A stretch of DNA of 64,000 nt from Maribellus sediminis (lineage in GTDB: Bacteria > Bacteroidota > Bacteroidia > Bacteroidales > Prolixibacteraceae), in contig NZ_WXUB01000002.1 of assembly GCF_011799805.1 (NCBI RefSeq), positions 992,001 through 1,056,000 of the forward strand, given 5' to 3'. A program made the translations under genes and the position numbers. Shown here piece after piece: positions 108 through 20,854 of the stretch (position 1 is its first letter; every line of letters starts with the position of its first letter). The notes under the pieces are model-generated. The model saw only the letters and a list, made by a program, of their open reading frames with translations, was not told the DNA's origin and searched no databases.

Positions 108-3100
108 ATGAAAGAAAAACTAAAAACAAGGTTCAGATTCAAACAAGCCGGATTTCCCCGAGCGGGATTTGGAAGTTTGTTGTTGGCTACCTTTATGTTG
201 GTTGGAAATCTAAGTTCTGCTTCAAACGAACAGGCAGACGGACCAAACCAATTCAGGGAAGAAAAAGCCTTATCAACTTCATCGGCACAGCAAAACACCA
301 TTAAGGTTACCGGAAAGGTTACCGACGGACAGGGACTGGGACTTCCGGGTGTAAACATTGTTGAAAAAGGAACGATGAAAGGCGTTGTAACTTCAGTTGA
401 TGGAGACTACGAAATCGAGGTACCTGAGAATACGACACTCATTTTCTCGTTTATCGGATTCAGCACACAGGAAATCAATGTGAATGGAAGAACCACTATT
501 GATATTGTAATGCAGGAACAAACACATGGATTGGACGAGGTTGTGGTGACCGCCATGGGTGTTGTTTCTGAAAAGAAAGAACTGAATTTCGCAGTACAGG
601 CCATTAATTCCGATGAAATTACCCGCGACAAACAAGCGAGTTTTGTTGATGCACTGCAAGGCCGAATTGCGGGTGTGGATATTTCGGGAACAGGTGGCTC
701 ACCAACCGCAAGTTCACAAATACTTATTCGAGGTATCGCCTCCATTAACCCGGCACAAAACAACGAACCGATTTTCATCCTGAACGGAATGCATGTATCG
801 GGAGGAGCTTCAAAGGCTGCCGAAATCAATCCGAACGACATTGAGAATGTAACTGTTCTGAAAGGAGCAGCTGCAGCAGCACTTTACGGACAGGAAGCAG
901 CCAACGGCGCCATCATGATCACCACCAAGTCGGGTAAAGCCGGCGAAGTGATCGTTCAGGCCAGCAGTACTTTCCAAATCGACGAAGCCTACCGCATTCC
1001 TGAAATCCAGGATATGTACCTCCGCGGAAGCGACGGAGTTTACCGCGAAGAAACTTTCCTTGGTTGGGGACCGCTTAAACCGGCCAATGTTCAAACCTAC
1101 GATAATGTTGGAAACTACCTGAAAACAGGAGTTTACCAAAAATATGACCTCTCCGTTTCGGGAGGAACAGATAAATTCACTTCATACGCTTCAGCAAGTT
1201 ATACCGATCATAAAGGAATTGTTCCAAACGATTACCTCAAAAGAACGGGCGTTTTATTTAAATCGGATTATAACGTTAGCGACAAGCTGAAATTTGGCTT
1301 TATGGCCGATCTTACAAAACGTGAATCACGCGGTCCGGGCTCAATGGGCACCGTGTATTCCTGGCCAATCGACGATAATATGGCAGATTACAAAAATCCT
1401 GACGGAAGCATGCGTTACCTTTGGTTCAGAATCGATGATCTTGGAAATAACAAGTATAACCGCATCCACAATTCAACCAACCCGTATTGGAGCCGATATG
1501 AAGATTCCGGTGTTAGTGAATCGTACCGAACGCTAGTACAGGGAACGGTGAACTGGAATCCGGTTAAAAACCTGAATCTTACCGGCAGACTTGGGTACGA
1601 TCTTACAAACTCAGAAAGCCAGAGTAGTGTTACGGCACGTTATAAATTGCAGGAAGGCGAAGAGATTATTGCTTCTGATCTTCCTTCGTTTGGATCGTTT
1701 AGTTATTACGATGGTAAAAGTTCGGTGGTAAACGCAGCAATTCTGGCTACTTATTCCTGGGACATCAATGAGGATATGTCGCTGAATTTTCTTGGAGGTG
1801 CCGATCTAAAAACCTCGAAAGGAAGATCGACAAGTCTATTAGGACAACAATATATTGTACCTGAGTTTGAAAGTTTAAACAACACGGCGGTTATTGAGCC
1901 GGATGTTAATTACCGCTCGATGTACCGCACCGAGAAAAACGTATACGGTTACTACGGCGAAGTAAAATTCGATTACCGGGGTATTGCGCACCTGGGAGTT
2001 ACCGGCAGAAACGACCACTCTTCTACCCTGCCTAAAGAGAACAACTCCTACTTTTACCCGTCGGTTAGTGGTGGTTTAATCGTTACCGAACTCTTCGAAA
2101 TAAAAAATCAATTAATTAGTTTTGGAAAGATCAGAGGCAACTGGGCTAAAGTGGGTAAAGATGCGCCACTTTACCGTTTGAACAACTGGTACCTGGCTAT
2201 GCCGTTCCCCGATGGCGGATACGGGATTAACCCTGCTCGAAGCAGTAATCCGAATCTGAAACCTGAGTTTACAACCTCATGGGAAGTCGGCCTCGACATG
2301 CGTTTATTCAACGATAAAACTCATTTGGATGTAGCCTATTATTCAACATTGGTGGAAGACCAGATTGTTGACGTACGTGTTTCACCGGCATCGGGAAATA
2401 TTTTACAGACCAGAAACGAAGGAAACATCAAAAACCGGGGTATTGAAATAACCTGGGGACAGGAAGTCATTAATAACGGATCTTTCCGATGGAATATGAC
2501 CACCAACTTTGGCAAAAACAAAGGTACGGTTGAAGACCTGCCCGACGACCTGGTGGAAGTATATCATTATGCCGGTCAGGTTGGCGACATTCGCCCAACG
2601 GCTTACCTGCACGGATCAACTCTAGCCCTTTCGGGAAAAGACTACCTGCGTAACGATGACGGAAAGATCATTGTTGACGAGAACGGTTATCCGAAAATCA
2701 ATGCCAGCAGTTCCCTGCTGATCGGTAACCGCGAACCAAAATTTACAATGGGCTGGCAAAACAACTGGAGCTACAAAAACATTTCGTTGTCGGCGCTTAT
2801 CAACTTCCGTTATGGCGGCGATGTTGTTAACGGAACTTACAAATACCTGATGAGTAACGGTCAATCGGCCAAACTTGAAGATTACCGTAACCGACAAATT
2901 CTTATAGATGGTGTTGTGGAACAGGCTGACGGAACTTATACTGAAAACACCACACCGGTTATTTTCGATCATCAGTTTTACACCAACTATTTCGCACCTG
3001 TTGGATCGAACTTTATTGAAGACGGTTCTTTTGTGCGTCTGTCGAACGTTACCTTATCGTACGACTTTGCCGGTTTGCTGAAAAACTCGAATATCAAAGA

Positions 3101-3272
3101 TCTCGTGTTCTCAGTAACAGGAAGAAATTTACTGCTGCTTACCAATTACAGCGGCTCTGATCCCTCGGTGAACTACACCGGTTCGTCAGGCGGTACCGGA
3201 ACTTACGGAATTGATTATATCCCCGTTCCGAATACCCGATCGATTGCGTTTAACATCAGTGCAAAATTTTAA
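108..3272 (+). CDS. SusC/RagA-type TonB-dependent outer-membrane importer
   Basis: Outer-membrane TonB-dependent transporter of the SusC family, which imports oligomers delivered by its SusD lid using TonB energy. The start is taken at ATG 108; a TTG at 81 would add nine unlikely residues. After a basic N-terminus and one hydrophobic signal segment come a carboxypeptidase-regulatory-like domain (around residues 60-140, starting at VTGKVTDGQG), a TonB-box-like stretch LDEVVVTAMG, the plug domain with LKGAAAAALYG, and a long beta-barrel ending in F. The 1054 residues are normal for SusC. There is no STN domain, so unlike the second SusC (22812-26237) it is not expected to signal to a FecR. SusD follows 12 nt later. 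The family call is firm; peptidoglycan fragments as substrate are inferred from neighbours only. Confidence 0.95.
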   Translation: MKEKLKTRFRFKQAGFPRAGFGSLLLATFMLVGNLSSASNEQADGPNQFREEKALSTSSAQQNTIKVTGKVTDGQGLGLPGVNIVEKGTMKGVVTSVDGDYEIEVPENTTLIFSFIGFSTQEINVNGRTTIDIVMQEQTHGLDEVVVTAMGVVSEKKELNFAVQAINSDEITRDKQASFVDALQGRIAGVDISGTGGSPTASSQILIRGIASINPAQNNEPIFILNGMHVSGGASKAAEINPNDIENVTVLKGAAAAALYGQEAANGAIMITTKSGKAGEVIVQASSTFQIDEAYRIPEIQDMYLRGSDGVYREETFLGWGPLKPANVQTYDNVGNYLKTGVYQKYDLSVSGGTDKFTSYASASYTDHKGIVPNDYLKRTGVLFKSDYNVSDKLKFGFMADLTKRESRGPGSMGTVYSWPIDDNMADYKNPDGSMRYLWFRIDDLGNNKYNRIHNSTNPYWSRYEDSGVSESYRTLVQGTVNWNPVKNLNLTGRLGYDLTNSESQSSVTARYKLQEGEEIIASDLPSFGSFSYYDGKSSVVNAAILATYSWDINEDMSLNFLGGADLKTSKGRSTSLLGQQYIVPEFESLNNTAVIEPDVNYRSMYRTEKNVYGYYGEVKFDYRGIAHLGVTGRNDHSSTLPKENNSYFYPSVSGGLIVTELFEIKNQLISFGKIRGNWAKVGKDAPLYRLNNWYLAMPFPDGGYGINPARSSNPNLKPEFTTSWEVGLDMRLFNDKTHLDVAYYSTLVEDQIVDVRVSPASGNILQTRNEGNIKNRGIEITWGQEVINNGSFRWNMTTNFGKNKGTVEDLPDDLVEVYHYAGQVGDIRPTAYLHGSTLALSGKDYLRNDDGKIIVDENGYPKINASSSLLIGNREPKFTMGWQNNWSYKNISLSALINFRYGGDVVNGTYKYLMSNGQSAKLEDYRNRQILIDGVVEQADGTYTENTTPVIFDHQFYTNYFAPVGSNFIEDGSFVRLSNVTLSYDFAGLLKNSNIKDLVFSVTGRNLLLLTNYSGSDPSVNYTGSSGGTGTYGIDYIPVPNTRSIAFNISAKF

Positions 3273-3284
3273 ACTGAAACAATT

Positions 3285-4868
3285 ATGAAAAGATTTAAAT
3301 ATATATTTCTGTTGCTGATCATTCTGGGCACCATAACCGGGTGCGAAGATTATTTGGGTGAAAACCGCGACCCGGATTCGGTTGATGCGGTTCCGCCGGA
3401 TCAGATATTTCCCGTTGTGTTGTTTTATTCGTCGTTACAGAATTACGACCATAGTGAATACGGCACTTATCTCAGCCAATGTCTGACTACTGCAAGTAAA
3501 AGCCAAACCAGTGCTCATGCTTACCGAAGTGGTTGGGAATTCCTTGGAATGAACCGTCACCCGCAGTGGCGTCGTCACTTTTTCGATGTAGGTTCAAATG
3601 CAAAAGACCTTATTCAGTTTGCAAAAGAAGAAAACTCGGCAAACTATGAAGCTATTACAAGGTTGTTAAACCTGATTTCGGTACAGCTAACTACCGATGC
3701 CTTTGGCGACATGCCATTGTCGGAAGCTTACCAGTCGTCATCGCCAAAATACGACACACAGGAAAGTATTTACGAATGGATGAAAAACGAAGTAGCCGAA
3801 CTGGAGACGATGTTTAACAGCGCTGAAGTGCGCCAGGCAACCAACCGGATAATGGACGGCGATGTTGACCGCGTATTTGCAGGGGATGTTGACAAATGGC
3901 AAAAGGTACTTTATGCAATAAAATCGAGAATTTTGTTGCGTCAGCTGCCAAACTTAAATACCGACGCTGCTACCTGCAACCAGATTATTGCTGCAGCCGA
4001 AACCGCATTAAATGGCTGGGCTGATCCGCGTTACAAATTCGATGGCGGATCGAGCGTTGAGAAAAACTGTATGTGGGGCCGCACTAACCGTCCGGTAGGT
4101 GGATGGCAAAGTCGTACCAACGATTTAAGCGGCGCCATTCCTTCAAAATTCCTGATGGAAAACCTGTTTGGCTATAATCCGAATACCGGCGAATTCACCG
4201 ATCCACGTCTGCCCCAAATTATGAAAGCTCGTGGTGATGCGGCCAGCGGAATAGATACAACCTACCGCTACCTTGAAAACAACATCGGAATGCCGGCTAC
4301 TCATAAAATCGAATGGTATCCTGACATGTATGAGTCTCCGCTAACTACTGATACATCAACCATTACATTGTTTACCAAAGGCGAACTGTACTTTATTGTT
4401 GCCGAAGCAGCTTACTGGGCCGGCGATAAATCGAAAGCAGTTAACAACCTGGTATCAGGAATCCGATACCACATGAGCCGTTTGGGTGTTCCTGCCAACG
4501 AAATTGAAGCTTATATTTCTAATTCAGAACTGGTTCCCGGAACTGCAAATATTAGTTTGAGCCACATCATGCTTGAAAAATACAAAGCATTGTATTTGCA
4601 ACCTGAACAGTGGACCGACCTGCGCCGTTACGGTTACAGCAACAACCAAAACGGTGTGCTTTACGACAACACGGTAATTTACCCCGGTTTACGTCGGCCG
4701 TACAATTTATACGAAGCCTACTGGAGTAACGAAAACGAATGGATTCAACGTATTAACTACGATCCTGAGACAGAAGAGAAATACAACCGCGAAGAGTTGA
4801 TCCGCCTGGATGCGTTCCGTAACCCGGAATGGCTGAAAAAACCAATGATCTGGGCTCCTCAGAACTAG
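3285..4868 (+). CDS. SusD/RagB-like outer-membrane lipoprotein (SusD-like_2 type)
   Basis: Surface lipoprotein that caps the SusC barrel and binds ligand. The signal peptide ends in a lipobox with Cys20 (TITGC). The mature protein is alpha-helical with TPR-like helices, and the segment LEKYKALYLQPEQWTDLRRYGY near residue 430 is typical of the SusD and RagB lipoprotein family. Its 527 residues fit the family. It lies 12 nt downstream of susC and 27 nt upstream of another lipoprotein gene, so all four genes to 7375 are probably one transcript. Specificity cannot be read from the sequence; the neighbouring murein enzymes suggest a peptidoglycan-derived ligand (inference). Confidence 0.93.
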   Translation: MKRFKYIFLLLIILGTITGCEDYLGENRDPDSVDAVPPDQIFPVVLFYSSLQNYDHSEYGTYLSQCLTTASKSQTSAHAYRSGWEFLGMNRHPQWRRHFFDVGSNAKDLIQFAKEENSANYEAITRLLNLISVQLTTDAFGDMPLSEAYQSSSPKYDTQESIYEWMKNEVAELETMFNSAEVRQATNRIMDGDVDRVFAGDVDKWQKVLYAIKSRILLRQLPNLNTDAATCNQIIAAAETALNGWADPRYKFDGGSSVEKNCMWGRTNRPVGGWQSRTNDLSGAIPSKFLMENLFGYNPNTGEFTDPRLPQIMKARGDAASGIDTTYRYLENNIGMPATHKIEWYPDMYESPLTTDTSTITLFTKGELYFIVAEAAYWAGDKSKAVNNLVSGIRYHMSRLGVPANEIEAYISNSELVPGTANISLSHIMLEKYKALYLQPEQWTDLRRYGYSNNQNGVLYDNTVIYPGLRRPYNLYEAYWSNENEWIQRINYDPETEEKYNREELIRLDAFRNPEWLKKPMIWAPQN

Positions 4869-4895
4869 ATAAATTGATTGAATGATTAAAATCAA

Positions 4896-5744
4896 ATGAA
4901 AATGAAACAAATCACAAAATACATTTTGGCGTTGATTCTGGGAGCCACAACACTGGTTTCATGCGAAATCAACGATCCGATAGGCGACATTGCCCGAACC
5001 GGAGATATTGCCGCCAACATATACATGGTCATCCCATCGTCGATCGTCGATGCCGGTAATCCTGTCGATTTTCATGCCGAATACTGGTCGGTTGACGATC
5101 AGTTTGAATCGCTGTCTATCGGTTATGCCATTCAGGCTAAAATGAGCTACAGCATTACTGCAGTGGCAACTAACTATACGTATACGATGGACTCTTCAGA
5201 AGTTGCACGCGAGTACCAGCCTATAAAATCGTTTGAGCATTCTTCGGATAACTACGATGCAGAAGCCAGAGCTTATGTTATCAACGACGATTTTCCGGTA
5301 AGTTACACACTGGCCACCTCGGGCATTGGTAACAGCGACACCTATAATGAGGAACTCATCAATTCTGTATTCCCGGAAAGTGCCATTGCTGCATTTTACG
5401 ATGGATTCTTTGAAACACTCGATTACGATTTAATGAAAAACCTGGTGGTTACCACGCATGCCATTGTAGACGAAGAAACTTTCGAATCGCATTGGAATAC
5501 CGAAACCATTGAAGATCCGGCCGGTGGCGATCCAATCGAGGTAAAAACGATGAAAGAGGAATCTGTTCCGACACTAAAATCGTATACCAAACAAATTCCT
5601 TTAAGCGATATTGTATACAATGCCAATAAATTCATTTATGAAATTGCCTATACAAAGTCCTACGAATTAAATACACGGTTCAGGATAGTGAACGGTACCG
5701 GTATCGAGAACTTCTCTGAAGTAAAAACAATCACCGTTAATTAA
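4896..5744 (+). CDS. Lipoprotein in the SusCD operon, probable surface ligand-binding protein
   Basis: Hypothetical lipoprotein of 282 residues with signal peptide and lipobox (LVSC, Cys23). I do not recognise a named domain. The sequence is polar and beta-rich, and the first mature segment (about 30-60, with VDAGNPVDFHAEY) resembles the start of an Ig-like fold. It sits directly after SusD and 11 nt before a PKD lipoprotein, which is where SusE/SusF-like surface glycan-binding proteins are normally found. The role in holding substrate at the cell surface is inferred from position and lipidation. Confidence 0.85.
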   Translation: MKMKQITKYILALILGATTLVSCEINDPIGDIARTGDIAANIYMVIPSSIVDAGNPVDFHAEYWSVDDQFESLSIGYAIQAKMSYSITAVATNYTYTMDSSEVAREYQPIKSFEHSSDNYDAEARAYVINDDFPVSYTLATSGIGNSDTYNEELINSVFPESAIAAFYDGFFETLDYDLMKNLVVTTHAIVDEETFESHWNTETIEDPAGGDPIEVKTMKEESVPTLKSYTKQIPLSDIVYNANKFIYEIAYTKSYELNTRFRIVNGTGIENFSEVKTITVN

Positions 5745-5755
5745 AACGTAACATC

Positions 5756-7375
5756 ATGAAGAAGACAAATAGAATCATATCATTTATTCTGATAGCTGTG
5801 TCGATGCTGGCATTCACGGCCTGCGAGCAGGAACTGCTCGTTGAAGAATTTGAATCGGACATGGTGAATTTCAGCTACAAAGCAACATCAATTCATTATG
5901 TTATCGGTGAAGAGATCAGCTTTATTAACGAATCGAAAGTTGGGAGCTCATGGGAATGGAATTTTGGCGATGGAACTACGTCCACCGATCGCGATCCGGT
6001 TCACAAATACGACGAACCGGGAACCTACAAAGTAAAATTGGTGGTTGACGGCGGAACATACTCGGTAGAGAAAAACATCATGGTTAGCGATATCATTCCA
6101 ATTGTAAGTTACAGTACCGAAGACCCAACGATTGTTTTTAAGCAGTCGGAAGTTACTTTCGATGTACAATTGCTGAATCCTGAAGGCCTGCCTGTGACCT
6201 ATACGTGGGCTTTCCCAAAAGGTTCGAGCGGCGAAGGAATCGATGAGAACGGAAAGTCGGAACTGGCTTCACCTACGGTTGTTTTTGGTTCAATTGGTAG
6301 CCAGATCGTAAACCTCACCATCAAGCTGGGCGACAAGGACCTTGCCCCCATCAGCGTGAATGTGAAGGTTAATTACGACAAGCCGGTTAAAACCTTGTTC
6401 TACGCCGTAAAAAATGGCAATTTAATGTCGCGCAAAATCATCAACGATGCTATCGATCCGGAAATTAACCAGCCTTTCGATTTGGGTTATCGTTCAGGAA
6501 AACACCCGATGACACTGCAGGTTGCCGGCGACTGGGTATATGTTTTTGATGCCGGTACAAGAATTAGCTATGTAGCGGATCCTGCAGGCCTAGGTGATGG
6601 TGAAATTTTTGCCGTTGCTACCGACGGTTCGAAAAGAGAATCGGTGATCGAAAATTTTGGTGGCGATACCTACTACGATTTTTATTACGGTTTTGTTGAT
6701 GAAGCCGCCAACACCTTATATTGGACCGACCGCCGCGAAGGAATTTTCCGTACTTCAATGAATACCCGAAATGCCAAATTCTCTCTTGATGAATACAACT
6801 ACTTCGTACAAAACAGCTGGCTGGGCTATTACGGCAAAGGAATATACTGGGGTAACGTAAACGGACCGATCTTCAGAAGAGGTGACACCTGGTGGTGGGG
6901 TAAAAACTCAAACGGTGCCGGTATTTTCCGTTTTACCGAAGCCGATATTAAGGGTGCACCTGTTGAAGCTGAAGAGCCGGAACCGGCAGCAGGTTCATTG
7001 TTAACAACGTTTACGATCCGCGGCATGGTGGTTGATGAAGTAAATCAGCGCCTGTATGTTGCATCACAAAGCCATAAAGTGATTTTCTGTTTCAATTTGG
7101 ATGGAACCTTCGTTAAAATTGTTGAAGCTTTTGGTGCCGACGACGCTCCACCAACAAGCAATGAAAACATTTTTGTTAGCGGCATGGCTATTGATGTTGA
7201 CGAGAACGGCGACGGTTACCTCTACTACGCCTACCGAGGCCCGGAAGGCTCAGAAGATCCGAAGTTGAAATCCGGAATCAAAAGATATAAACTAAATGAC
7301 GATACAGCCGTACCCGAGTTTTACATCGAAGGTGTTGAAGCCTACGGTCTGGCCATCGATCAGGTAGCCAAGTAA
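5756..7375 (+). CDS. PKD-domain lipoprotein with a YWTD/NHL-like beta-propeller
   Basis: Exported lipoprotein of 539 residues with lipobox Cys23 (FTAC). A PKD domain lies at about residues 40-95 and shows the hallmark WEWNFGDGTTS followed by GTYKVKLVV. A second Ig/PKD-like segment follows to about 205. The rest looks like a six-bladed propeller, with repeated hydrophobic strands and one clear LDL-receptor-type signature, LYWTDRREG, near residue 320. Such proteins end many Bacteroidota SusCD operons as surface binding modules. It is the last gene before a strong terminator at 7377-7411. No catalytic residues are evident; binding of substrate or of partner proteins is an inference. Confidence 0.88.
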   Translation: MKKTNRIISFILIAVSMLAFTACEQELLVEEFESDMVNFSYKATSIHYVIGEEISFINESKVGSSWEWNFGDGTTSTDRDPVHKYDEPGTYKVKLVVDGGTYSVEKNIMVSDIIPIVSYSTEDPTIVFKQSEVTFDVQLLNPEGLPVTYTWAFPKGSSGEGIDENGKSELASPTVVFGSIGSQIVNLTIKLGDKDLAPISVNVKVNYDKPVKTLFYAVKNGNLMSRKIINDAIDPEINQPFDLGYRSGKHPMTLQVAGDWVYVFDAGTRISYVADPAGLGDGEIFAVATDGSKRESVIENFGGDTYYDFYYGFVDEAANTLYWTDRREGIFRTSMNTRNAKFSLDEYNYFVQNSWLGYYGKGIYWGNVNGPIFRRGDTWWWGKNSNGAGIFRFTEADIKGAPVEAEEPEPAAGSLLTTFTIRGMVVDEVNQRLYVASQSHKVIFCFNLDGTFVKIVEAFGADDAPPTSNENIFVSGMAIDVDENGDGYLYYAYRGPEGSEDPKLKSGIKRYKLNDDTAVPEFYIEGVEAYGLAIDQVAK

Positions 7376-7376
7376 T

Positions 7377-7411
7377 AAAAGCGGGTGTGGAACAAAACCA
7401 CACCCGCTTTT
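7377..7411 (+). terminator. Rho-independent terminator after the SusCD-lipoprotein block
   Basis: A perfect 14-bp stem is formed by AAAAGCGGGTGTGG (7377-7390) and CCACACCCGCTTTT (7398-7411) around a 7-nt loop. It separates the binding and transport genes from the hydrolase genes, so the two halves may be expressed at different levels. Confidence 0.88.
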
Positions 7412-7452
7412 GCTCTCCCGACATGCTATTTTTAAAAATTTGAAACACTTCC

Positions 7453-10248: not shown

Positions 10249-10301
10249 CTATTGTTTGGAATTGTTTTTGTCTTGAAAAGAAGAAATTTAAACCAGATAT
10301 T

Positions 10302-11195: not shown

Positions 11196-12133
11196 AAATG
11201 AAAAAAATGATGCTCTTTCTGGGCCTGTTTGCGGCAATGATCGATTTGTCGAACGCCCAGCCGGTGCAAGGCACCACTCCCCGAAAAATCATCAGTGGAG
11301 AAAACCAGTTTTTCATGCGACCACAGTGGTCTCCCGACGGAACAAAGATTGCTTTTACCGCTGAAAAGAATCAGGGAATCTGGATCAGTAATGCCAAAGG
11401 GAACAAACTAACACAAATAACCGACGACAACGAAGCCGGTTTCGGGTTTAGCTGGTCGGCTGATTCAAAATCGATTTTGGCACGCCCCGTCGTACAAGTG
11501 GATGACCAACGGTTTCACCAGGTAAAAGCCTATGATATTGAGAGCGGTGAAGACAGAATCATTGTTGAAAATACCCGAAAGTTGCAGAGTCTGCCGGTCT
11601 GGAGCAACCACGATGCGTCAATCGCTTTTCTTATGAATAACGCCGTTGAAACACGCAACAGCGGAAAAACTCAGGTTAAATCGGCATCAAAAGATACACC
11701 AAAAGCCATGGCCCTGGGAAATGCACTTAAAACTACAGCCGGCTCTGAAACCATTGAATTCGATCAGTTCAAAGACCGGTACATTTTCAACGTAAAGACC
11801 TCGCCCAACGGACAAAAGATGGTTTTTCAGGTTAACGGGCTTGGATTGTTTGCCTGTAACGCTGACGGCACTGAATTAAAGTCGCTTGGACACAGTGAGC
11901 AAGCAAGCTGGATGCCCGACAACCGTTACATCGTTACTACAAAAGTAGCTGATAACGGTGTGGCGATCACCGCCGCAGAACTGATGCTGATTGATACCGA
12001 ATCAGGTTCGGAATTCCCTTTGCTAAGCGACGCCGATTACATTGCGCTTAATCCTTCGGTTTCGCCCGACGGAGCAAAACTGGTTTTCGAAAATGTGAAA
12101 GACGGCGCCATTTACCTGATGCCTCTTAAATAA
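11192..12133 (+). CDS. Exported TolB-like (PD40) beta-propeller protein
   Basis: 313 residues with a signal peptide ending around SNAQ and several PD40/WD40-like blades: RPQWSPDGTKIAFTA, FSWSADSKSILA and NPSVSPDGAKLVFEN. This is the TolB-type propeller fold used for protein binding. The start codon overlaps the preceding stop by four bases, and the amidase gene follows 20 nt later. Placement between a GHL10 hydrolase and a murein amidase suggests an accessory or scaffold role in peptidoglycan breakdown (inference). No enzymatic residues are visible. Confidence 0.85.
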   Translation: MKMKKMMLFLGLFAAMIDLSNAQPVQGTTPRKIISGENQFFMRPQWSPDGTKIAFTAEKNQGIWISNAKGNKLTQITDDNEAGFGFSWSADSKSILARPVVQVDDQRFHQVKAYDIESGEDRIIVENTRKLQSLPVWSNHDASIAFLMNNAVETRNSGKTQVKSASKDTPKAMALGNALKTTAGSETIEFDQFKDRYIFNVKTSPNGQKMVFQVNGLGLFACNADGTELKSLGHSEQASWMPDNRYIVTTKVADNGVAITAAELMLIDTESGSEFPLLSDADYIALNPSVSPDGAKLVFENVKDGAIYLMPLK

Positions 12134-12153
12134 ACCCACTAAATGAAATTGTT

Positions 12154-14667
12154 ATGAATGTAAGATTTTTACCTACTATATTTTTCATTGGATTGTTGTT
12201 CTTCGTTAACAACTCATTTGCCCAGGTAAGTGGATTGGCCGATTACAAAATTTTTCTCGATCCCGGCCATGCGCAAAAAGAGAATATGGGGCTGTATAAC
12301 TATTCTGAAGCTGAAAAAGTTTTACGTGTTGCCCACGAGTTAAAAGATCTTTTTGAAAGCCAAACCGACATTGAGGCTGTTCACTTGAGCCGCCTGACCG
12401 ATGCTGACCAGATTTCGCTTTCTGAACGTACCGACCTTGCCAATTCGCTGGGTGTCGATTTCTACTATTCCATCCACAGCGATGCGGGGGGTTCTACGGC
12501 AAACAGCACCCTCACCATGTATGGCGGCTGGAGAAAGAACGGTTCTACAGTTGAAAAAAGTCCGGTTGGCGGTAAAGCTTTTGGCGATCTCCTGAATGTA
12601 GACCTTTCCGGAGCAATGCGTATCGCCAACCGTGGCAATTATGCCGACCGTGTTTATTACCAGGGTGAAATTTACCACCACGATAATCAGTGGCCCTACC
12701 TTCATGTGAACCGTACTACAAACATGGCTTCGCTGCTTAGTGAAGGAGGATTCCACACCAATCCGACTCAACAACAACGCAATATGAATGCGAAGTGGAA
12801 AAAACTGGAAGCTATGTCGGCTTTTCGTTCTTTTCTGAAATACAAAGGCATTGAGCCACCGGCAATAGGTGTCGTAACCGGAATTATTACCGATGAAGAC
12901 AATGGGTTGCCTGTTAACGGAGTAGTGGTAACCATTGGCGAAAAACACGATACTACTGACACTTACCAGTCGTTGTTTAAAAATTATTCCACAAAAGACG
13001 GTCAACTTCGAAATGGTTTTTACTGGATTGACAACCTCACTCCGGGAGCAGAAGTGGAAGTGATTTTCAGTTCTGAGGATTATCTACCCAAAACGGTGAG
13101 CCTGACCCTGGCTACCGATTCAGCCGGATGGACAAAGGACAACCTGAGTTTTCTGGATGTGAGTTTAACCAGCAATAAACCACCCCTGGTTGAAAGTGTA
13201 ACGGCTGAAAACGGTCTGGGGAGAGTAATTCCGGGAATGGATCCGATTTCGATCACCTTTAACCGTACCATGAATAAAGAATCGGTGGAACAGGCCATTT
13301 CGGTTTCGCCTGAAGTACCAATCAGTTTTAATTGGAAAGATGATGCCACTATCATGATCAACACGGATAGCCTGGCGTTCAACGCCAACTACACCTTTAC
13401 GATTGCCGACAGCACTGCCAAGAACGACGTTACCGGTCAGTTTCTGGATGGCGATAACGATGGCGTGGAAGGTGGAGCTTATCAATTCGACATAACAACT
13501 TCCACCGAAGACATTACCGCACCGCAGCTACTCACATACTGGCCAAATGATACTACAGCCTCTGCTGAAATAAGGCCGGTGATCAGGATGGTTTACGACG
13601 AAGAAATTGCCGATGAAAGTGTAGCTTCGAACATCGTTTCGGTACAACGTATTTCCGATGGCAGATATGCTTACGGGAAAGTTGGACATGTTGTGGTGAA
13701 CGGTCAAAGTGTTTTGCACTTTTTTACAACGCAGGATCTGGTAAACCGCGAAACTTACCGGGTAAGTATTAAAGCGGGGCTTAAAGATGTGAACGGAAAT
13801 GCAACTGAAGCTTTCAGTTTTACTTTCACAGTTAAGGAGGAAGAAATTACAGCCAAGACCATAATCGACGATTTTAACGCAGGCGTTACCGGCTGGTGGC
13901 AGCCACAGGCATCAGGTTCTACCTCGGGAATTATTACCGAAGTAACCAGTTCGGGTGCCGATACAGAAGAAACCGTTCTTTCGGTTGGCAGTACCGGAAG
14001 TATGAAGCTGAACTACGGCTGGGATGTTGAAGCCTCAGGCCAGTATATCCGCGAATACCTTCCATCAACTGCAGATCAGAATAACAACCGATTTGGCATC
14101 GACGACGTACTGCAAATGTTTGTGATGGGTGATGGTTCCGGCAACCAGTTTCGTTTTATGATCAAAGATGGCGATTCGAAATACGAAGCCAGCCAGTGGT
14201 ACACGCTCGACTGGAAAGGCTGGAAACTTGTTTCGTGGAATTTAAGCGATGATCCGGTTTATGCCTGGGTTAATGGCGACGGTGTGCTGAACGGCGATAA
14301 TTTCCTCGTTGACGGTATCCACCTGCGTTATGCCGATGGCGCTGTTGCGCAGGGAACGCTTTGGTTCGACGACCTGCGTTTTGTAACGCGTTCGGCTTAC
14401 ACACCACCTACCGACGTGGAACTCGTTGCTGATGATGAAATGATCAGCATGTTTCCAAACCCTGCCCGGAGTAAAGTCAGAATTGAAACAAAGGAGAACA
14501 TCAGAAGTGTTTCTTTCTACAATTTATCGGGGCAGCTTACAAAACAACTTCAACCTGATTCACGCGAGGTTGAAATTAAACTGAATGAGATCGAACCGGG
14601 CTTATACCTTGTTAAAATTGAAACGACAAAAGGAATTTCAACTAAAAAACTGAACGTTGTCAAATAA
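12154..14667 (+). CDS. Secreted N-acetylmuramoyl-L-alanine amidase (Amidase_3) with Ig-like and T9SS domains
   Basis: Zinc amidase that removes stem peptides from murein glycan. After a signal peptide (SFAQ, residue 24), the Amidase_3 domain spans about 30-240. It contains the zinc ligands His39 (LDPGHAQ), Glu52 (YSEAEK) and His108 (SIHSDAGG) and the catalytic glutamate Glu197 (LLSEGGFHTNP), all intact. Downstream are a carboxypeptidase-regulatory-like segment, two Big_5-like Ig domains (about 345-560), a beta-sandwich that may bind carbohydrate (about 570-750), and a T9SS type A sorting domain in the last 80 residues (MFPNPARSKVRI, SFYNLSGQL). At 837 residues it is far longer than cell-division amidases. 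It is a secreted or surface enzyme, which suits scavenging more than self-division. Last gene of the + strand cluster. Confidence 0.93.
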   Translation: MNVRFLPTIFFIGLLFFVNNSFAQVSGLADYKIFLDPGHAQKENMGLYNYSEAEKVLRVAHELKDLFESQTDIEAVHLSRLTDADQISLSERTDLANSLGVDFYYSIHSDAGGSTANSTLTMYGGWRKNGSTVEKSPVGGKAFGDLLNVDLSGAMRIANRGNYADRVYYQGEIYHHDNQWPYLHVNRTTNMASLLSEGGFHTNPTQQQRNMNAKWKKLEAMSAFRSFLKYKGIEPPAIGVVTGIITDEDNGLPVNGVVVTIGEKHDTTDTYQSLFKNYSTKDGQLRNGFYWIDNLTPGAEVEVIFSSEDYLPKTVSLTLATDSAGWTKDNLSFLDVSLTSNKPPLVESVTAENGLGRVIPGMDPISITFNRTMNKESVEQAISVSPEVPISFNWKDDATIMINTDSLAFNANYTFTIADSTAKNDVTGQFLDGDNDGVEGGAYQFDITTSTEDITAPQLLTYWPNDTTASAEIRPVIRMVYDEEIADESVASNIVSVQRISDGRYAYGKVGHVVVNGQSVLHFFTTQDLVNRETYRVSIKAGLKDVNGNATEAFSFTFTVKEEEITAKTIIDDFNAGVTGWWQPQASGSTSGIITEVTSSGADTEETVLSVGSTGSMKLNYGWDVEASGQYIREYLPSTADQNNNRFGIDDVLQMFVMGDGSGNQFRFMIKDGDSKYEASQWYTLDWKGWKLVSWNLSDDPVYAWVNGDGVLNGDNFLVDGIHLRYADGAVAQGTLWFDDLRFVTRSAYTPPTDVELVADDEMISMFPNPARSKVRIETKENIRSVSFYNLSGQLTKQLQPDSREVEIKLNEIEPGLYLVKIETTKGISTKKLNVVK

Positions 14668-15301: not shown

Positions 15302-15344
15302 ATTACGCAATTATCCGGCCAATAAGAAATATACTATTCTGAAA

Positions 15345-16361
15345 TTACAATTTTCTAACCCCAATCCCGGGCAGATCATTCAAAGTTACTTTGCCATCGA
15401 TCACTTTCATGCCTTCAAAAATATCGTTGCTGATCAACAAGGCACCATCCAGATCGGCCCAATCAACAAGCGGGGAAAGCTGAGCCGCCGCAGAAACCGC
15501 ACATGAAGTTTCGGTCATACATCCCAACATCACTTTCATATCAAGCGAGCGGGCTGCATCCACCATCAGTTTCGCTTCGCGCATACCTGTACTTTTCATC
15601 AGTTTAATATTGATGCCGGAATAAACATCTTTCAACCCTGAGATATCATACAAGCGTTGAAATGCCTCATCGGCAATAGTTGGCAGCGGACTGTGAGCCG
15701 TCAGCCAGGCCATGTCATCCAGCTGTTCCTTTGGCATCGGTTGTTCAATAAACACAATCCCCTTTTCTTTTAGCCAGAAGATCATATCCAGCGCCTGTTG
15801 TTTATCGGTCCAACCCTGGTTAGCATCCACACAAAGCGGTACGTCAGTAACCGAACGAATTGTTTCAATGATCTCGCGATCGTTATCGCGTCCCAGTTTT
15901 ATTTTCAGAAACTTAAACTCAGCGGCTTCTTTTGTTTTCTGAATGATCATTTCCCGTGTATCAATCCCGATGGTGTAGGTTGTGAAAGGTGTTTTTTTGG
16001 CATCCAGTCCCCATATCTGATGCCACGATTTTCCCTGAAGTTTCCCTACCAGATCGTGCAAAGCAATGTCCACCGAAGCCTTTGCAGCACTGTTTCCCGG
16101 AGCAATGGAATCCACGTAATCAAGCATGTCATCCATTTTCAGCGGATCGGAAAAACCAGATAGATCAACCTTCTGTAAAAACCGTGAAACAGTTTCATGC
16201 GATTCGCCCAGGTAAGGTGGCATCGAAGCTTCTCCATAACCAACAACTCCCTCATATTCGAGTTCAACCAGCATAACCGGGGTTGATGTTCGCGAACTGG
16301 TTGCAAGATTAAATGCGTGTTTTAGCTTTAGTTCGTAGGGTTCGTAACGTAGTCGGATCAT
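15345..16361 (-). CDS. L-Ala-D/L-Glu epimerase (enolase superfamily)
   Basis: Cytosolic dipeptide epimerase that converts the murein dipeptide L-Ala-D-Glu to L-Ala-L-Glu so that ordinary peptidases can use it. The 338 residues show the muconate-lactonizing subgroup layout: KxK at Lys153/Lys155 (FLKIKLG), metal ligands Asp179 (CVDANQG), Glu206 (FIEQP) and Asp231 (IADEAF), a catalytic Lys at about 253 (NIKLMKS), and the Asp-x-Asp motif (WADLDG, Asp303 and Asp305) that marks dipeptide epimerases and contacts the substrate amino group. It is the last gene of the operon that starts with the GntR regulator, 14 nt after the NlpC/P60 gene. The pair mirrors Bacillus ykfB-ykfC of murein peptide catabolism. 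Confidence 0.9.
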   Translation of the reverse strand: MIRLRYEPYELKLKHAFNLATSSRTSTPVMLVELEYEGVVGYGEASMPPYLGESHETVSRFLQKVDLSGFSDPLKMDDMLDYVDSIAPGNSAAKASVDIALHDLVGKLQGKSWHQIWGLDAKKTPFTTYTIGIDTREMIIQKTKEAAEFKFLKIKLGRDNDREIIETIRSVTDVPLCVDANQGWTDKQQALDMIFWLKEKGIVFIEQPMPKEQLDDMAWLTAHSPLPTIADEAFQRLYDISGLKDVYSGINIKLMKSTGMREAKLMVDAARSLDMKVMLGCMTETSCAVSAAAQLSPLVDWADLDGALLISNDIFEGMKVIDGKVTLNDLPGIGVRKL

Positions 16362-16375
16362 TCTTAGAGTTTTTA

Positions 16376-17560
16376 TTATTCGGGAAGGACCATTTTATAA
16401 AAAGCATTATCCACAATCCACTCAATCCCCTTATCGTCCACATTATTCATTACACGGCGGGCGCGAACGTAGCCTTTTTCGTAATGTTCGGTATAATCTT
16501 CACTTGTGGCATCGAGGCTGTTAACACGCACCTTTCCCGATTCGTGAATAAACTTCTGATCGCCGATGCAAAGCCCAACGTGAGTTACTCTTTCAGGACG
16601 ATCTTCAGTTGCTTTTCTGCCAAAGAATACGAGATCGCCGGCTTCAAGATTTTCATAGCCATTTTCCACGCTGATTTCCTCGCCATACAACGTTTGCTGC
16701 GAAGCATCACGCTGCAGAAGCAAACCGTTAAAATAATAGGCAGTTTTCGTAAAACCGCTACAGTCCATCATTTTAGGCGAAGTTCCACCCCATAGATATG
16801 GCACGCCTTTAAACCGGAAAGCGGTTTTTAAAAGATCTTCTATTGTGAAAGATTTACTGTTCCACTGATCGGTTGAAACACATTCATTTTTCTTCACAAA
16901 AGCCTCGCGACCATCGGGGTAAAGTATTTTGTAATATTCCTTATCCTCATTCTCAACACTGAGCAAATTTCCTAAAACCAGGTCCGATTCCACACCGGAA
17001 TTTTGTTTTGGTTCGGAATAGGCAAAGCCGCTAACCTCGGCATAAATCACTTTTGGCAACTTCTTCCATTCAAGCATTTCGGCATTCGTCTTTGCAGAAA
17101 TACCTGCTCCATCGACCCAGCCAAAATAGCGATCGGGTGTTTGTACAAGGTACCAACCACCTTTTTTCCTGTAAATTTTTACAGGGGTGCCAAACAAAGC
17201 CTGCGTTAACAGTTCTGCTGCATGATCCGGTTTTGCCCGCATGTTACATACCGAAAGCGTAACTATTCCCCATGGATTTTCCTTAAACACTGCTTCGGGA
17301 AGCAATTCGACCTGGAAATCGTAATCGTTTTCCTTTGCCAGTTCCTGAAGCTTCTTAAAAGCCGGTTCCGAAACCGTTGCTCCGTGTAAAATTCTTTCGT
17401 CGTTGTTAACTGTTACATCGAAGTATTCCAGACGAGTGTCGGGAATTATTTCTTTTTGAATCTCCTGTATCTGTTGAGTTGTGACTTTGGGCGTTTGTTG
17501 CTGGCATGCAAACAATAAAACGCCAAAAGCAATAAACAAGATTTTAAAGTAATTCTTCAT
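16376..17560 (-). CDS. NlpC/P60 murein peptidase lipoprotein (YkfC-like gamma-D-Glu-diamino acid endopeptidase)
   Basis: 394-residue lipoprotein (Cys19, LLFAC). The middle holds two bacterial SH3-like domains at about residues 95-155 and 170-228 (VCNMRAKPDH, KKGGWYLVQTPDRYFGWV). The C-terminal NlpC/P60 domain has the catalytic Cys267 (MMDCSGFTK), His327 (RVTHVGL) and a third residue His339 (FIHESG). This SH3-SH3-NlpC/P60 arrangement is that of YkfC-type enzymes, which cut between gamma-D-Glu and the diamino acid in stem peptides with a free N-terminal L-Ala. The expected product, L-Ala-D-Glu, is the substrate of the epimerase encoded 14 nt downstream. It likely acts in the periplasm. Domain call firm; exact bond inferred from the family. 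Confidence 0.9.
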   Translation of the reverse strand: MKNYFKILFIAFGVLLFACQQQTPKVTTQQIQEIQKEIIPDTRLEYFDVTVNNDERILHGATVSEPAFKKLQELAKENDYDFQVELLPEAVFKENPWGIVTLSVCNMRAKPDHAAELLTQALFGTPVKIYRKKGGWYLVQTPDRYFGWVDGAGISAKTNAEMLEWKKLPKVIYAEVSGFAYSEPKQNSGVESDLVLGNLLSVENEDKEYYKILYPDGREAFVKKNECVSTDQWNSKSFTIEDLLKTAFRFKGVPYLWGGTSPKMMDCSGFTKTAYYFNGLLLQRDASQQTLYGEEISVENGYENLEAGDLVFFGRKATEDRPERVTHVGLCIGDQKFIHESGKVRVNSLDATSEDYTEHYEKGYVRARRVMNNVDDKGIEWIVDNAFYKMVLPE

Positions 17561-17574
17561 GATTGAGTTGACTC

Positions 17575-19002
17575 CTAATGATCAGTTAAATATTCCACGT
17601 CCAAATGATACGACCAGGCATCGAAATACAGGTTGCCACCTTTCCATTCAAGTTCTCCCCGTTGAAAATCGTAAGGTTCACTTCGGTAATATTTCTTTTT
17701 GGGCATGAATTCAGCTGCTACATCATCGTTAATGATCAAACGATAGGGATCCATTCCGTTTAAATAAAATTCACGAACCCGGATATCGTCCGAATCGATC
17801 AGTTTGAACGATGGATCAACCGGTACCCAGCCAATACCTTCGTAATATACTTCGGCCCAATCGTGCAGGTTCTTTTCCTGCGGTAAAAGGTACCAGCCAC
17901 TTTGCCATTTGCACGGAATTCCAAGACTCCGTGCCATACTCAGAAACAAAAAAGTCTGCATGCCGCAATCGCCCCGATGATGTTCCAGAACGTATTCAGG
18001 AATGCATTCCATTACCGAATATTCGAGAGCTCCGGCCCACGGAATGTTATCGTTGAGCCAGTAATACAACAACTTAACCTGGCTTACCGGATTGGTTTCG
18101 GCGCCCACAATTTGCTGAGCCAATGCTTTTATATCATCGTTGAATACAATGTGCGGAAGTTGTTCAGAAGTGTATTTTTTATAGAGTGTCGATTCTACAT
18201 CGTAAGGTTTTGTTTCCTCCGGTTTTACATCGAACCACTGCGCTGCAGTTTGCACCGTATATGCAACTTGAAACACAGTTGTTTCGTCTTTTACAGCTTT
18301 TTTCTCCAAATAAACCGATCGCTGATCAACCGTTGTTGGTGCAATATTCATCGCATCGCCATCAATTTGCAGCAACTCGACTTTTGAAGAACGCGCAATA
18401 CCCATTTTAGGATAAGGCAACCAGCAACGAAGAGTTTCTCCTGCAGGAACTGCGTTGACGTCCACTTTAACACTGTAGGTTATTTTCAAGCTTTGCTGGC
18501 TGAAAGGTTCTCTGCCGGCAATTCCTTCTTCAAAATAAGTTGGAATTACTTGCTGTTGAAAAGCTTCTACTCCGCTGTAAGATTCTCCATCGATACTTGC
18601 CTTTAACTTTTTAGCTTCAGGATTTATCCTGAAAAAATTACCGACGGCTCTGGAAAAATAGCGTTTTTCGCCATCGATTACCTTCATTTCAAGCTCACCG
18701 GAATTTTCCCATTTATCCAGGTCTTCATCCTTCAGATCAGGATAATACTTCTCAAATTGCTTTTTAACGTCAGCCCGTTTATACCGAAACTCTTTTCGTA
18801 TTCTTCTGAGCGTTTCCAACTCCACAATGTACTTTTCCTGAAGAAGCGAATCGTTGCGTGATTCACCAATTTTTTGAGAGAGCACAAACTCTGCTTGCCC
18901 AAATTCACCTTTTTGAATCAATTCATTCAAATCATATCCGGATTTTTGCCGGCACGCTGCCAGCGCAATGAAAAGCAATACATTGAGAAATGGTCGGAAC
19001 AC
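17575..19002 (-). CDS. Transglutaminase-like cysteine peptidase lipoprotein
   Basis: 475-residue lipoprotein (lipobox ALAAC, Cys17). An N-terminal helical region (about 20-165) is followed by an Ig-like beta domain (about 170-260) and a transglutaminase-core domain (about 290-420). That domain has an intact triad: Cys346 (HRGDCGMQT), His380 (NLHDWAEVY) and Asp396 (VPVDPSF). Bacterial members are mostly uncharacterised hydrolases or peptidases. Its position between the FadR-type regulator (9 nt upstream) and the YkfC-like peptidase (14 nt downstream) makes a murein stem-peptide cleavage role attractive, but that is an inference from neighbours. Confidence 0.85.
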   Translation of the reverse strand: MFRPFLNVLLFIALAACRQKSGYDLNELIQKGEFGQAEFVLSQKIGESRNDSLLQEKYIVELETLRRIRKEFRYKRADVKKQFEKYYPDLKDEDLDKWENSGELEMKVIDGEKRYFSRAVGNFFRINPEAKKLKASIDGESYSGVEAFQQQVIPTYFEEGIAGREPFSQQSLKITYSVKVDVNAVPAGETLRCWLPYPKMGIARSSKVELLQIDGDAMNIAPTTVDQRSVYLEKKAVKDETTVFQVAYTVQTAAQWFDVKPEETKPYDVESTLYKKYTSEQLPHIVFNDDIKALAQQIVGAETNPVSQVKLLYYWLNDNIPWAGALEYSVMECIPEYVLEHHRGDCGMQTFLFLSMARSLGIPCKWQSGWYLLPQEKNLHDWAEVYYEGIGWVPVDPSFKLIDSDDIRVREFYLNGMDPYRLIINDDVAAEFMPKKKYYRSEPYDFQRGELEWKGGNLYFDAWSYHLDVEYLTDH

Positions 19003-19011
19003 AAAGAAAAA

Positions 19012-19737
19012 TTATAATGAATTATGCAGATAACGTTTATAAATTTCAGAAGTACGTTCCAGGTGTTCGCGCATAAATCCTGATGCTGCCTCGCCATTTT
19101 GCTTATTGATGGCATCAAATACTTTGAGGTGGATGTCAAGTGTGAAATCCTTTTCGCCTTCCACATTTGCATAAATAAAATTGCGCATCCTTGGTAACAA
19201 GCTGTAAATCGGCTCCATAGTAATCTGAACGATTGGATTATGCGTAGCCCGAGCGATTAAAAGATGGAACTTATTATCGAGGTCGGCTTCCAGCTGTGTG
19301 TTGTCGGGATCGCAGGCCTTAAAAAGTTCAATGTTATTCTGAATGTCTGAAAGGTCGTTTTGATTTCGCTGACGGGCAGCCAGTCCTGCTATTTCAGGTT
19401 CGAATAAACGACGCACTTCAATAATCTGAGGGATCAGGTTCTGATCCAGTTGCATATCGTAATACAGGTTCATGGTTTTAATGGCATCGCCAATCTTAAA
19501 ACCGGTAACCGTCATTCCACTCCCCTTGGTTATTTCAATCAGTCCTCTCGCACTCAACCGACGCAATGCTTCGCGTAGAGCCGTTCGACTAACGCCAAAT
19601 GCTTCGCACAATTCTCTTTCAGTCGGTAGTTTCGATCCCACGGGAAGTTTCTTCTCGCGGATGGCAGCCTCAATTCTTCGTTCGATTTTCTGACTTAAGG
19701 TTAATTTGCTGCCAATTTTTTCAAAGATTTCATCCAT
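19012..19737 (-). CDS. FadR-subfamily GntR transcriptional regulator
   Basis: 241 residues. An N-terminal winged helix-turn-helix (about 12-80: LPVGSKLPTERELCEAFGVSRTALREALRRLSARGLIEI) is followed by an all-helical FCD ligand domain (about 90-230) with the metal-site pattern D-x3-H (DLDNKFH) plus later His residues (ATHNP, REHLERT). It is the first gene of the operon with the transglutaminase, NlpC/P60 and epimerase genes, and is divergent from the SGNH esterase gene. Carboxylate effectors are usual for FCD domains, so a murein peptide, MurNAc or an amino acid is a plausible signal (inference). A candidate autoregulatory site is at 19795-19803. Confidence 0.92.
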   Translation of the reverse strand: MDEIFEKIGSKLTLSQKIERRIEAAIREKKLPVGSKLPTERELCEAFGVSRTALREALRRLSARGLIEITKGSGMTVTGFKIGDAIKTMNLYYDMQLDQNLIPQIIEVRRLFEPEIAGLAARQRNQNDLSDIQNNIELFKACDPDNTQLEADLDNKFHLLIARATHNPIVQITMEPIYSLLPRMRNFIYANVEGEKDFTLDIHLKVFDAINKQNGEAASGFMREHLERTSEIYKRYLHNSL

Positions 19738-19985: not shown

Positions 19986-20019
19986 TTTGATTGTTTAGCA
20001 AGCTACCTGCTTATATTTG
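19986..20019 (+). promoter_or_regulatory. Promoter of the SGNH esterase gene
   Basis: TTTG at 19986-19989 and TATATTTG at 20012-20019, with a 22-nt spacer, match the Bacteroidota -33/-7 pattern apart from slightly long spacing. The start of transcription would fall near 20026. This argues that the ATG at 20051, and not an in-frame ATG at 19991 upstream of the -7 box, is the true start. Confidence 0.55.
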
Positions 20020-20050
20020 TAAGATACGTTCAATACTATACTATCATCCG

Positions 20051-20854
20051 ATGAAAAATAACAACCGCGAAACAAAAATATCACGAAAAACATTTCTTAA
20101 AACCTCAGCCTTTGCCGGCGCTTTCGTTGGAATAAGTGGCACTATGGCCTGTTCAGGTGCAAAAGCAGATGTAAAGGAAGAATATAAAGGATTGCGTTTC
20201 CTTTTCCAGGGTGATTCAATAACCGATGGGAATCGTGGACGTAATGAAGATCCGAATCACATAATGGGCCACGGTTATGCGTTTTCGGTAGCCAGCAGAG
20301 TTGGCGCCGATTTTCCATCAAGTGGTTTTACCTTTTTCAACCGCGGAATCAGTGGAGATACCGTAACCAAACTGGAAAAAAGATGGCAAAACGATACGAT
20401 GGATTTAAAACCGGATGTTTTAAGTCTGTTAGTGGGCATTAATGATGTGGGTGATATTGTACGACAATTGGGAGAGCCCAAAACGTTGAGCGAATTTGAA
20501 TCGGGCTACCGCAGACTACTGGATTTGAGCCGGACACAAAATCCCGATATACTGTTTGTTTTGGGAGTTCCTTTTGTTTACCGGGTAGGCAAACGAAACG
20601 AAAACTGGGAACTTTGGAACAAGGAAACACAGGACAGAGCCGAAGTTGTTCGAAAAATTTCAAAAGAATATGATGCTGTTTGTGTGGAATATCCCGGGGT
20701 TTTTGAGCAGGCAACAAAGCATACTCCTATCGAATACTGGATTTGGGATGGCGTACATCCAACTGTTTTCGGGCACGAACTGATGGCCCGGGAATGGATA
20801 AAAACAGTAGCAGAACGATTGGATTTTCTGAACCGATATAACTACGACAGCTAA
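20051..20854 (+). CDS. Tat-exported SGNH/GDSL hydrolase lipoprotein
   Basis: 267-residue esterase. The N-terminus has a twin-arginine-like motif (SRKTFLK, Arg-Lys variant), a hydrophobic stretch and a lipobox Cys34 (TMAC). The SGNH blocks are intact: nucleophile Ser56 in FQGDSITDG, block II FNRGISGDT, block III GIND (Asn131) and Asp233/His236 in DGVHP. Relatives remove acetyl groups from carbohydrates. It stands alone, divergent from the GntR operon. Removing O-acetyl groups from peptidoglycan, which block muramidases, would fit the neighbouring murein genes, but the substrate is inferred. The start was chosen from the promoter and the Tat motif. Confidence 0.88.
   Translation: MKNNNRETKISRKTFLKTSAFAGAFVGISGTMACSGAKADVKEEYKGLRFLFQGDSITDGNRGRNEDPNHIMGHGYAFSVASRVGADFPSSGFTFFNRGISGDTVTKLEKRWQNDTMDLKPDVLSLLVGINDVGDIVRQLGEPKTLSEFESGYRRLLDLSRTQNPDILFVLGVPFVYRVGKRNENWELWNKETQDRAEVVRKISKEYDAVCVEYPGVFEQATKHTPIEYWIWDGVHPTVFGHELMAREWIKTVAERLDFLNRYNYDS

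Follow-up and report, generated by a model that had tools for sequence, protein, structure and literature searches.

A candidate murein utilization locus next to MurNAc salvage genes in Maribellus sediminis

A 64,000-nt stretch of the Maribellus sediminis genome (assembly GCF_011799805.1, contig NZ_WXUB01000002.1, G000:C6:992001-1056000; hereafter "the window") begins with an eight-gene operon organized around a SusC-SusD pair. The composition and surroundings of this operon make it probable that the segment from 108 to 14667 (block 1) is a polysaccharide utilization locus (PUL) for the glycan of peptidoglycan (murein), feeding an adjacent cluster of the Tannerella type for scavenging N-acetylmuramic acid (MurNAc), represented by a MurK-like kinase and MurQ. 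We favor this interpretation because the MurK-like and MurQ genes lie a short way upstream on the same strand; because MurQ precedes a SusC of the window type in nine other genomes; because Amidase_3 and NAGPA (phosphodiester glycosidase) genes are found in 7 and 9, respectively, of 19 related PUL loci, and GHL10 is a murein-cleaving domain; because genes for SpoIID and an AmpG-like protein stand beside the MurK-like gene, as in the Tannerella forsythia operon; and because SprA and NamZ are encoded in the genome (NamZ away from the locus) and one relative, L213, has ten of these genes, from AmpG to GHL10, in a single stretch. Gene content, gene order, conservation and the family membership of MurQ are read directly from the sequences, from which all biological functions are in turn predicted.

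A preliminary description of the window had proposed a SusCD-based peptidoglycan locus. That observation is confirmed and its interpretation partly supported; the strongest evidence in its favor lay outside its view, to the left of the window and in other genomes.

A Sus-type operon downstream of predicted MurNAc salvage genes

The eight frames of block 1 are codirectional and separated by gaps of -4 to 77 bp (Table 1). Their common orientation and tight spacing, and the recurrence of the gene order in other genomes, argue that the grouping is more than chance. The block has the makeup of a PUL: adjacent SusC and SusD, followed in the same direction by surface lipoproteins and glycan-active enzymes (GHL10 and Amidase_3). 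SusCD and two surface lipoproteins had been noted in the preliminary description, and all four frames are present and open, SusD with the family score given in Table 1; the two propeller proteins had been missed. An alternative in-frame TTG start at position 81 is possible for SusC. The structure model of SGBP3 (SGBP, surface glycan-binding protein) is a predicted beta-sandwich (predicted local distance difference test, pLDDT, 90); compared with the PDB it gave no useful match (best TM-scores around 0.2), and no function can be derived from it.

The closest solved structure to the GHL10 protein is Cwp19 (254 bits over residues 28-362). While the GHL10 domain claimed for this protein is clear, the type IX secretion system (T9SS) tail also claimed for it falls below threshold (TIGR04183, 20.7 bits vs. 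a cut-off of 23) and no Pfam tail model matched. The tails of its orthologs in L065 and L066 score 42 and 49 bits, enough to exceed the cut-off of the Pfam model. The C-terminal part of the GHL10 orthologs contains fn3 repeats; that of the window protein is long and repeat-bearing. For the amidase, both parts of the original claim held: the Amidase_3 domain (PF01520) has a cut-off of 27 bits, well below the score obtained, and the T9SS sorting domain reaches 45 bits with Pfam (cut-off 27) and 42 bits with NCBIfam (cut-off 23). Alignment to 4RN7 shows that the His, Glu, His and Glu columns, which we take to be the metal-binding and catalytic residues, are retained. The tail points to a location beyond the outer membrane, and the presence of a SprA gene (2706 bits) indicates that the T9SS is likely present in this organism.

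The genes directly beyond the left edge of the window (L091), on the strand of block 1, encode the MurK-like kinase, MurQ and a T9SS-tailed protein; MurQ ends 1.9 kb before the window begins. The substrate of MurQ is a murein-specific sugar phosphate. Best PDB matches of the kinase (154-170 bits) are an ATPase, an N-acetylglucosamine (GlcNAc) kinase and a "putative novel MurNAc kinase", NCBIfam being uninformative. T. forsythia MurK and K1058 are treated in PMC10465942 (here and below, statements on cited papers refer to the parts of the source consulted). On the opposite strand, SpoIID scores above its cut-off (177 vs. 83 bits). Relatives of the 472-aa T9SS-tailed protein sit downstream of GHL10 in Paludibacter PULs.

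Table 1. Features of the locus. Positions are those of the window, except for the first four rows (contig positions).
Feature	Position	Strand	Basis
MurNAc-kinase-like protein, 277 aa	988432-989265	as block 1	PDB matches
MurQ, MurNAc-6-phosphate etherase	989271-990083	as block 1	TIGR00274, 324 bits (cut-off 302)
T9SS-tailed protein, 472 aa, upstream of SusC	990299-991717 (L091:13299-14717)	as block 1	T9SS tail
GT2, 392-aa protein, SpoIID, AmpG-like permease	left flank, beside MurK	opposite	SpoIID above, AmpG-like below family cut-off
SusC, TonB-dependent outer-membrane transporter	108..3272	+	open frame, domains, orthologs
SusD, surface lipoprotein lid	3285..4868	+	SusD-like_2, 119 bits
SGBP3, surface lipoprotein	4896..5744	+	no Pfam family; adjoins SusD in relatives too
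PKD-domain surface lipoprotein, putative glycan-binding protein	5756..7375	+	PKD domain; seen in relatives
GHL10 glycosidase, 931 aa, long C-terminal part and weak T9SS-type tail	7453..10248	+	217 bits (cut-off 27.9)
Propeller-like protein A	10302..11195	+	no Pfam family above cut-off
Beta-propeller protein B	11192..12133	+	PD40 above Pfam cut-off; directly upstream of amidase
Amidase_3, probable N-acetylmuramoyl-L-alanine amidase, 837 aa, Ig-like domains and T9SS tail	12154..14667	+	62 bits
Dipeptide epimerase, probably L-Ala-D/L-Glu	15345..16361	-	MR_MLE
SH3-NlpC/P60 lipoprotein, YkfC/dipeptidyl-peptidase VI-like	16376..17560	-	NLPC_P60, SH3_3/SH3_16 above cut-off
Transglutaminase-like lipoprotein	17575..19002	-	Transglut_core
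GntR/FCD (FadR-type) regulator of block 2	19012..19737	-	GntR, FCD

MurQ-SusC adjacency and relatives of the PUL

Scanning genome contigs with the GHL10 profile, the best 80 matches being kept, gave 79 loci, which are a sample of the closest relatives rather than a census; all locus counts are to be read in this sense. With L065, L066 and L073 added, the labelled set comprises 82 loci, annotated with home-made profiles, 80 of which have a labelled GHL10 frame. Pfam was used to check the domain names of several neighbor proteins in these loci. A locus was counted as a PUL locus when GHL10 had, within 12 kb, a SusD of the window type together with an SGBP or a PKD lipoprotein. Counts of neighbors near GHL10 are lower bounds, given contig ends and 10-kb flanks. 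Remaining homolog counts come from whole-genome searches, the class sample consisting of 396 evenly drawn genomes and the genus sample of 37.

MurQ scores above its cut-off in 21 of the 22 genomes behind PUL-type loci. In the nine genomes mentioned above, its gene precedes that of SusC on the same strand at a distance of 16-172 bp (L096, L097, L101, L102, L105, L132, L213, L215 and L217), and all nine SusC proteins are of the window's first type (468-1141 bits with SusC1 vs. 107-165 bits with the window's second SusC). The contigs of L215 and L217 end inside SusC, with GHL10 outside the visible sequence. L213 displays AmpG, SpoIID, GT2, MurK, MurQ, SusC, SusD, SGBP3, PKD and GHL10 within a single stretch. 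Other arrangements occur: MurQ, AmpG and GT2 directly precede SusC in L201 and L207; GHL10 is directly followed by MurK-MurQ in L109; in L203, MurQ is found downstream, beyond three more frames that include a second GHL10. Class-wide, GHL10 and MurQ lie within 30 kb of each other in 6 of 39 genomes, vs. 0.82 expected (among the matches listed, M. sediminis itself excluded); this is only a hint, as several of the six share families and most of the GHL10 proteins are of the short kind. A short GHL10 gene directly adjoins MurQ in L078, a locus lacking a window-type SusCD.

SusD together with SGBP or PKD lipoproteins was found beside GHL10 in 19 of the 80 GHL10 loci. The hosts include Carboxylicivirga, Marinilabiliaceae, Paludibacter, Paludibacteraceae, Muribaculaceae and other Bacteroidales, as well as Marinoscillum, Membranihabitans and Pedobacter. 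Besides the amidase and NAGPA genes counted above, propeller genes (5 loci), MurQ (7) and MurK (6) occur near GHL10 in these PUL loci. The corresponding figures for the 61 loci without a PUL are 13 for Amidase_3, 2 for NAGPA, 1 for MurQ, 3 for NlpC and 1 for the epimerase. In the class sample, the window-type SusD was detected in 14 of 396 genomes at 1e-60. Strong matches (850, 703 and 691 bits) correspond to M. sediminis, G352 and G335, each with GHL10 just downstream; 12 further matches are weaker (207-260 bits), with GHL10 no more than about 4 kb away in G229 and G375.

NAGPA genes are found in L095, L096, L097, L099, L101, L102, L104, L105 and L128; several of the proteins are T9SS-tailed, and block 1 of the window has none. 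A propeller gene directly upstream of Amidase_3 on the same strand was seen in 15 of 82 GHL10 loci (L093, L095, L097, L100, L101, L103, L115, L120, L124, L126, L132, L133, L135, L136 and L137), ten of them outside the PUL-locus count, and a trio like that at 10302-12133 and beyond also occurs in L068. Propeller and amidase may thus act as partners. One Bacteroidales locus, L111, carries four GHL10 genes in tandem.

Proposed route and relation to known systems

The T9SS-exported amidase would remove stem peptides from extracellular murein, after which the GHL10 enzyme would cleave the denuded glycan to oligosaccharides. These would be bound by the lipoproteins and SusD and imported by SusC, a role suggested by the operon context. 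Periplasmic enzymes and the AmpG-like permease may then deliver disaccharides or MurNAc to the cytoplasm, where the MurNAc-kinase-like protein and MurQ (G000:C6:988432-990083) would convert MurNAc to GlcNAc-6-phosphate. The convergent genes to the right (block 2) would be a resident operon for stem-peptide salvage that may process peptides freed by the PUL. Substrate, import, the direction of the pathway and the use of PUL-freed peptides by block 2 are all predicted from gene content and context.

T. forsythia has an established AmpG-MurKQ route and is known to use whole murein (PMC7670621, PMC5388701, PMC5790795, PMC10465942). The scavenging operon of this organism, Tanf_08345-08385, is described as containing a xanthan lyase gene, two gtf genes, lytB, ampG, ybbC, murT, murK and murQ (PMC5388701, PMC5790795, PMC7670621). 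GT2, SpoIID/LytB, AmpG-like, MurK-like and MurQ proteins are likewise encoded beside the window PUL or in genus relatives, one of which has in addition a 990-aa Golvesin_C protein. The likeness is one of gene families, sequences having been compared only with PDB chains of the kinase type. In the parts consulted, the account of the T. forsythia operon mentions no SusCD, SGBP or GHL10 and leaves the outer-membrane step untreated: the scavenging steps worked out there are those of the inner membrane (AmpG, MurT) and the cytoplasm (MurK, MurQ). The M. sediminis locus supplies candidates for the outer-membrane step, namely SusC, SusD, two lipoproteins and two putatively exported enzymes, all encoded by a single operon next to MurK-MurQ.

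With the Sus-like PULs of Bacteroidota the locus shares SusC, SusD, two surface lipoproteins and a predicted exported glycosidase in one operon. It departs from the usual PUL in combining a murein amidase with a GHL10 protein and in its linkage to MurK-like and MurQ sugar genes. Compared with Cwp19 and DigH, which share the GHL10 domain, the window protein adds a long repeat part and a weak T9SS-type tail, and is encoded in a SusCD operon. The murein-salvage operons of Bacillus subtilis (ykf and the murQ-namZ group) comprise a YkfC-type peptidase and epimerase, and MurQ, features shared with the window, and employ ATP-binding cassette (ABC) or phosphotransferase system (PTS) importers; we know of no SusCD or T9SS in them. 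No murein PUL was found in the literature searched, a scope in which subscription journals are mostly not covered and which gives no proof of novelty; none is described in the consulted parts of PMC6987092, PMC10877868, PMC11488536 and PMC11658791.

Wall teichoic acid is held by a GlcNAc-1-phosphate-6-MurNAc link. We tentatively suggest that a family of murein PULs spans the Bacteroidota, in which a dedicated SusCD would import peptide-free glycan and the NAGPA of the Paludibacter branch might also cut the teichoic-acid link; such NAGPA-bearing PULs would make whole Gram-positive walls edible. A SusC gene preceded by MurQ can serve as a marker for murein PULs in other genomes. If the proposal is true, murein joins the substrates with dedicated PULs in Bacteroidota, which would matter for the consumption of neighboring cells, dead or living, for wall turnover in guts and sediments, and for the liberation of wall fragments sensed by hosts.

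The convergent operon and alternative explanations

The minus-strand genes of block 2 (15345-19737) are spaced by 9 to 14 bp; the transglutaminase-like, NlpC/P60, epimerase and FadR-type proteins assigned to this strand in the preliminary description all have the expected domains. The epimerase scores below NCBIfam equivalog cut-offs (PRK15129, 152 vs. 343 bits; DgcA, 214 vs. 400) and its closest solved structure is 3IJI (515 bits; labeled a muconate cycloisomerase in its PDB file). The NlpC/P60 protein is closest to the dipeptidyl-peptidase VI structures 3PVQ and 3NPF, the YkfC second-SH3 model remaining under its own cut-off (21.4 vs. 27.4). As judged by eye from the translations, this protein and the transglutaminase-like one have lipoprotein-type signals at the N-terminus. 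The intervening segment, 14718-15266, encodes a PEMT/ICMT-like methyltransferase and has a lower G+C content (0.386).

Block 2 has a history of its own in the genus. The epimerase is found in 35 of the 37 genomes. Among 20 genus epimerase loci, NlpC stands beside the epimerase in all 20, GntR in 15 and the transglutaminase in 11; MurQ is a direct neighbor of the epimerase in 14 of the 20, where the PUL is absent, with MurK in 12 of those 14. On the other side are a 990-1020-aa protein (Golvesin_C and Amidase_3-like regions), GT2, DUF4922 and SpoIID. Block 2 and MurK-MurQ are thus an old murein-salvage neighborhood, and the PUL of M. sediminis lies inside it, between MurQ and block 2. Within the genus sample, the long GHL10 occurs in M. 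sediminis only; other genus GHL10 frames are 436-567 aa long and at most 46% identical, and no other SusD exceeds 31% identity (best full-length match 125 bits vs. 1231 for self). G+C contents (block 1, 0.449; block 2, 0.433; left flank, 0.437) give no clear sign of recent transfer, so that insertion into M. sediminis and loss from relatives are both compatible with the data.

The preliminary description had taken the two blocks for one conserved pathway, a view not upheld by the comparison. In the 19 PUL loci, the 12 kb around GHL10 contained neither an epimerase nor an NlpC gene. At 1e-30, the epimerase is present in 8 of 17 PUL genomes, five copies being close (51-69%) and three distant (32-34%); the close epimerase of G457 belongs to a second locus, L103, and that of G454 is on the same contig as MurQ, 16 kb off. 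On these counts, block 2 was not retained as a necessary component of the PUL, which is usually accompanied by the sugar branch (MurK-MurQ) rather than by the peptide branch. It is quite possible, at somewhat under even chances, that the murein-glycan PUL is real and block 2 a functionally independent neighbor: the genus keeps block 2 where it has no PUL, and palindrome and FadR-like patterns revealed no shared operator. Set against this are the contact of both PUL and block 2 with MurQ, the peptides that the amidase would release and block 2 could process, and two kinds of locus. L103 (Paludibacter; no SusCD) unites propeller, Amidase_3, NlpC, epimerase, an 806-aa protein and GHL10, an example, though a rare one, of the link guessed in the preliminary description; L197 and L198, from the genus, have SusC-SusD followed by NlpC-epimerase in a row, possibly an importer of murein peptides. 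The 806-aa protein of L103 (L103:7476-9896), between epimerase and GHL10, has a weak CBM48-like match below cut-off.

Another variant, about one chance in three by our judgment, is that GHL10 acts here as a lytic transglycosylase, yielding anhydro-MurNAc ends, and not as a hydrolase. Its closest solved relative, Cwp19, has such activity on murein (PMC6016235); DigH, by contrast, is described as a hydrolase acting on denuded glycan (PMC12288456). No match to AnmK (anhydro-MurNAc kinase) was found in the M. sediminis genome, vs. 5 of 14 control genomes. As the linked kinase is, moreover, of the MurNAc type, a hydrolase is favored, though not strongly.

Several observations weigh against a murein PUL as such. 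MurQ lies away from the PUL in G335, G352, G454, G455, G456, G468, G469 and G471, and about 29 kb from it in G460; it was not found in G473. MurQ occurs in 361 of the 396 class genomes at 1e-60, so its adjacency counts as evidence and its presence does not. Amidase_3 also occurs near the GHL10 of 13 of the 61 loci without a PUL, while within 12 kb Amidase_3 is lacking from 12 and NAGPA from 10 of the 19 PUL loci, contig ends explaining some cases. The AmpG-like protein is far under its family cut-off (TIGR00901, 179.5 vs. 350 bits), no close SusD or long GHL10 was found in the 36 other genus genomes searched, and the upstream regions of GntR, MurK and SusC showed no palindrome in common (simple palindrome and FadR-like patterns, a weak test). 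The separations from MurQ, those of G335, G352, G455, G456 and G469 among them, together with PUL loci having no amidase within 12 kb (L065, L066, L094 and L113) and phosphodiester glycosidases that could act on other phosphoglycans, would fit a PUL for some other amino-sugar glycan (host, algal or capsular) with an incidental MurK-MurQ neighborhood. We consider this improbable in view of the MurQ-SusC adjacency in nine other genomes, the amidases of the PUL loci and the fact that GHL10 enzymes of known substrate cleave murein (PMC6016235, PMC12288456). Service to the cell's own wall (daughter-cell splitting, or recovery of shed murein via SusCD) would agree with the function of Amidase_3 and DigH in Escherichia coli cell separation (PMC12288456) and with the resident AmpG/MurK/MurQ cluster of PUL-free genus members, but is unlikely given the amidase tail, which indicates a location beyond the outer membrane, and an absence from the 36 other genus genomes searched that is unlike a housekeeping function.

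Under the preferred reading as a murein PUL, the locus extends beyond the left edge of the window and, on the right, does not reach 20854, the boundary first proposed. The GDSL gene at 19991-20854 was rejected as a member: it is situated past the FadR-type gene, beside a separate sigma/FecR/SusCD locus, and genus relatives have a fucosidase or sulfatase gene there, again beside another sigma/FecR/SusC locus. The segment 19991-28139 encodes the GDSL esterase, a sigma factor, FecR, the second SusC and a further frame in the place of SusD, and appears to be a separate glycan PUL.

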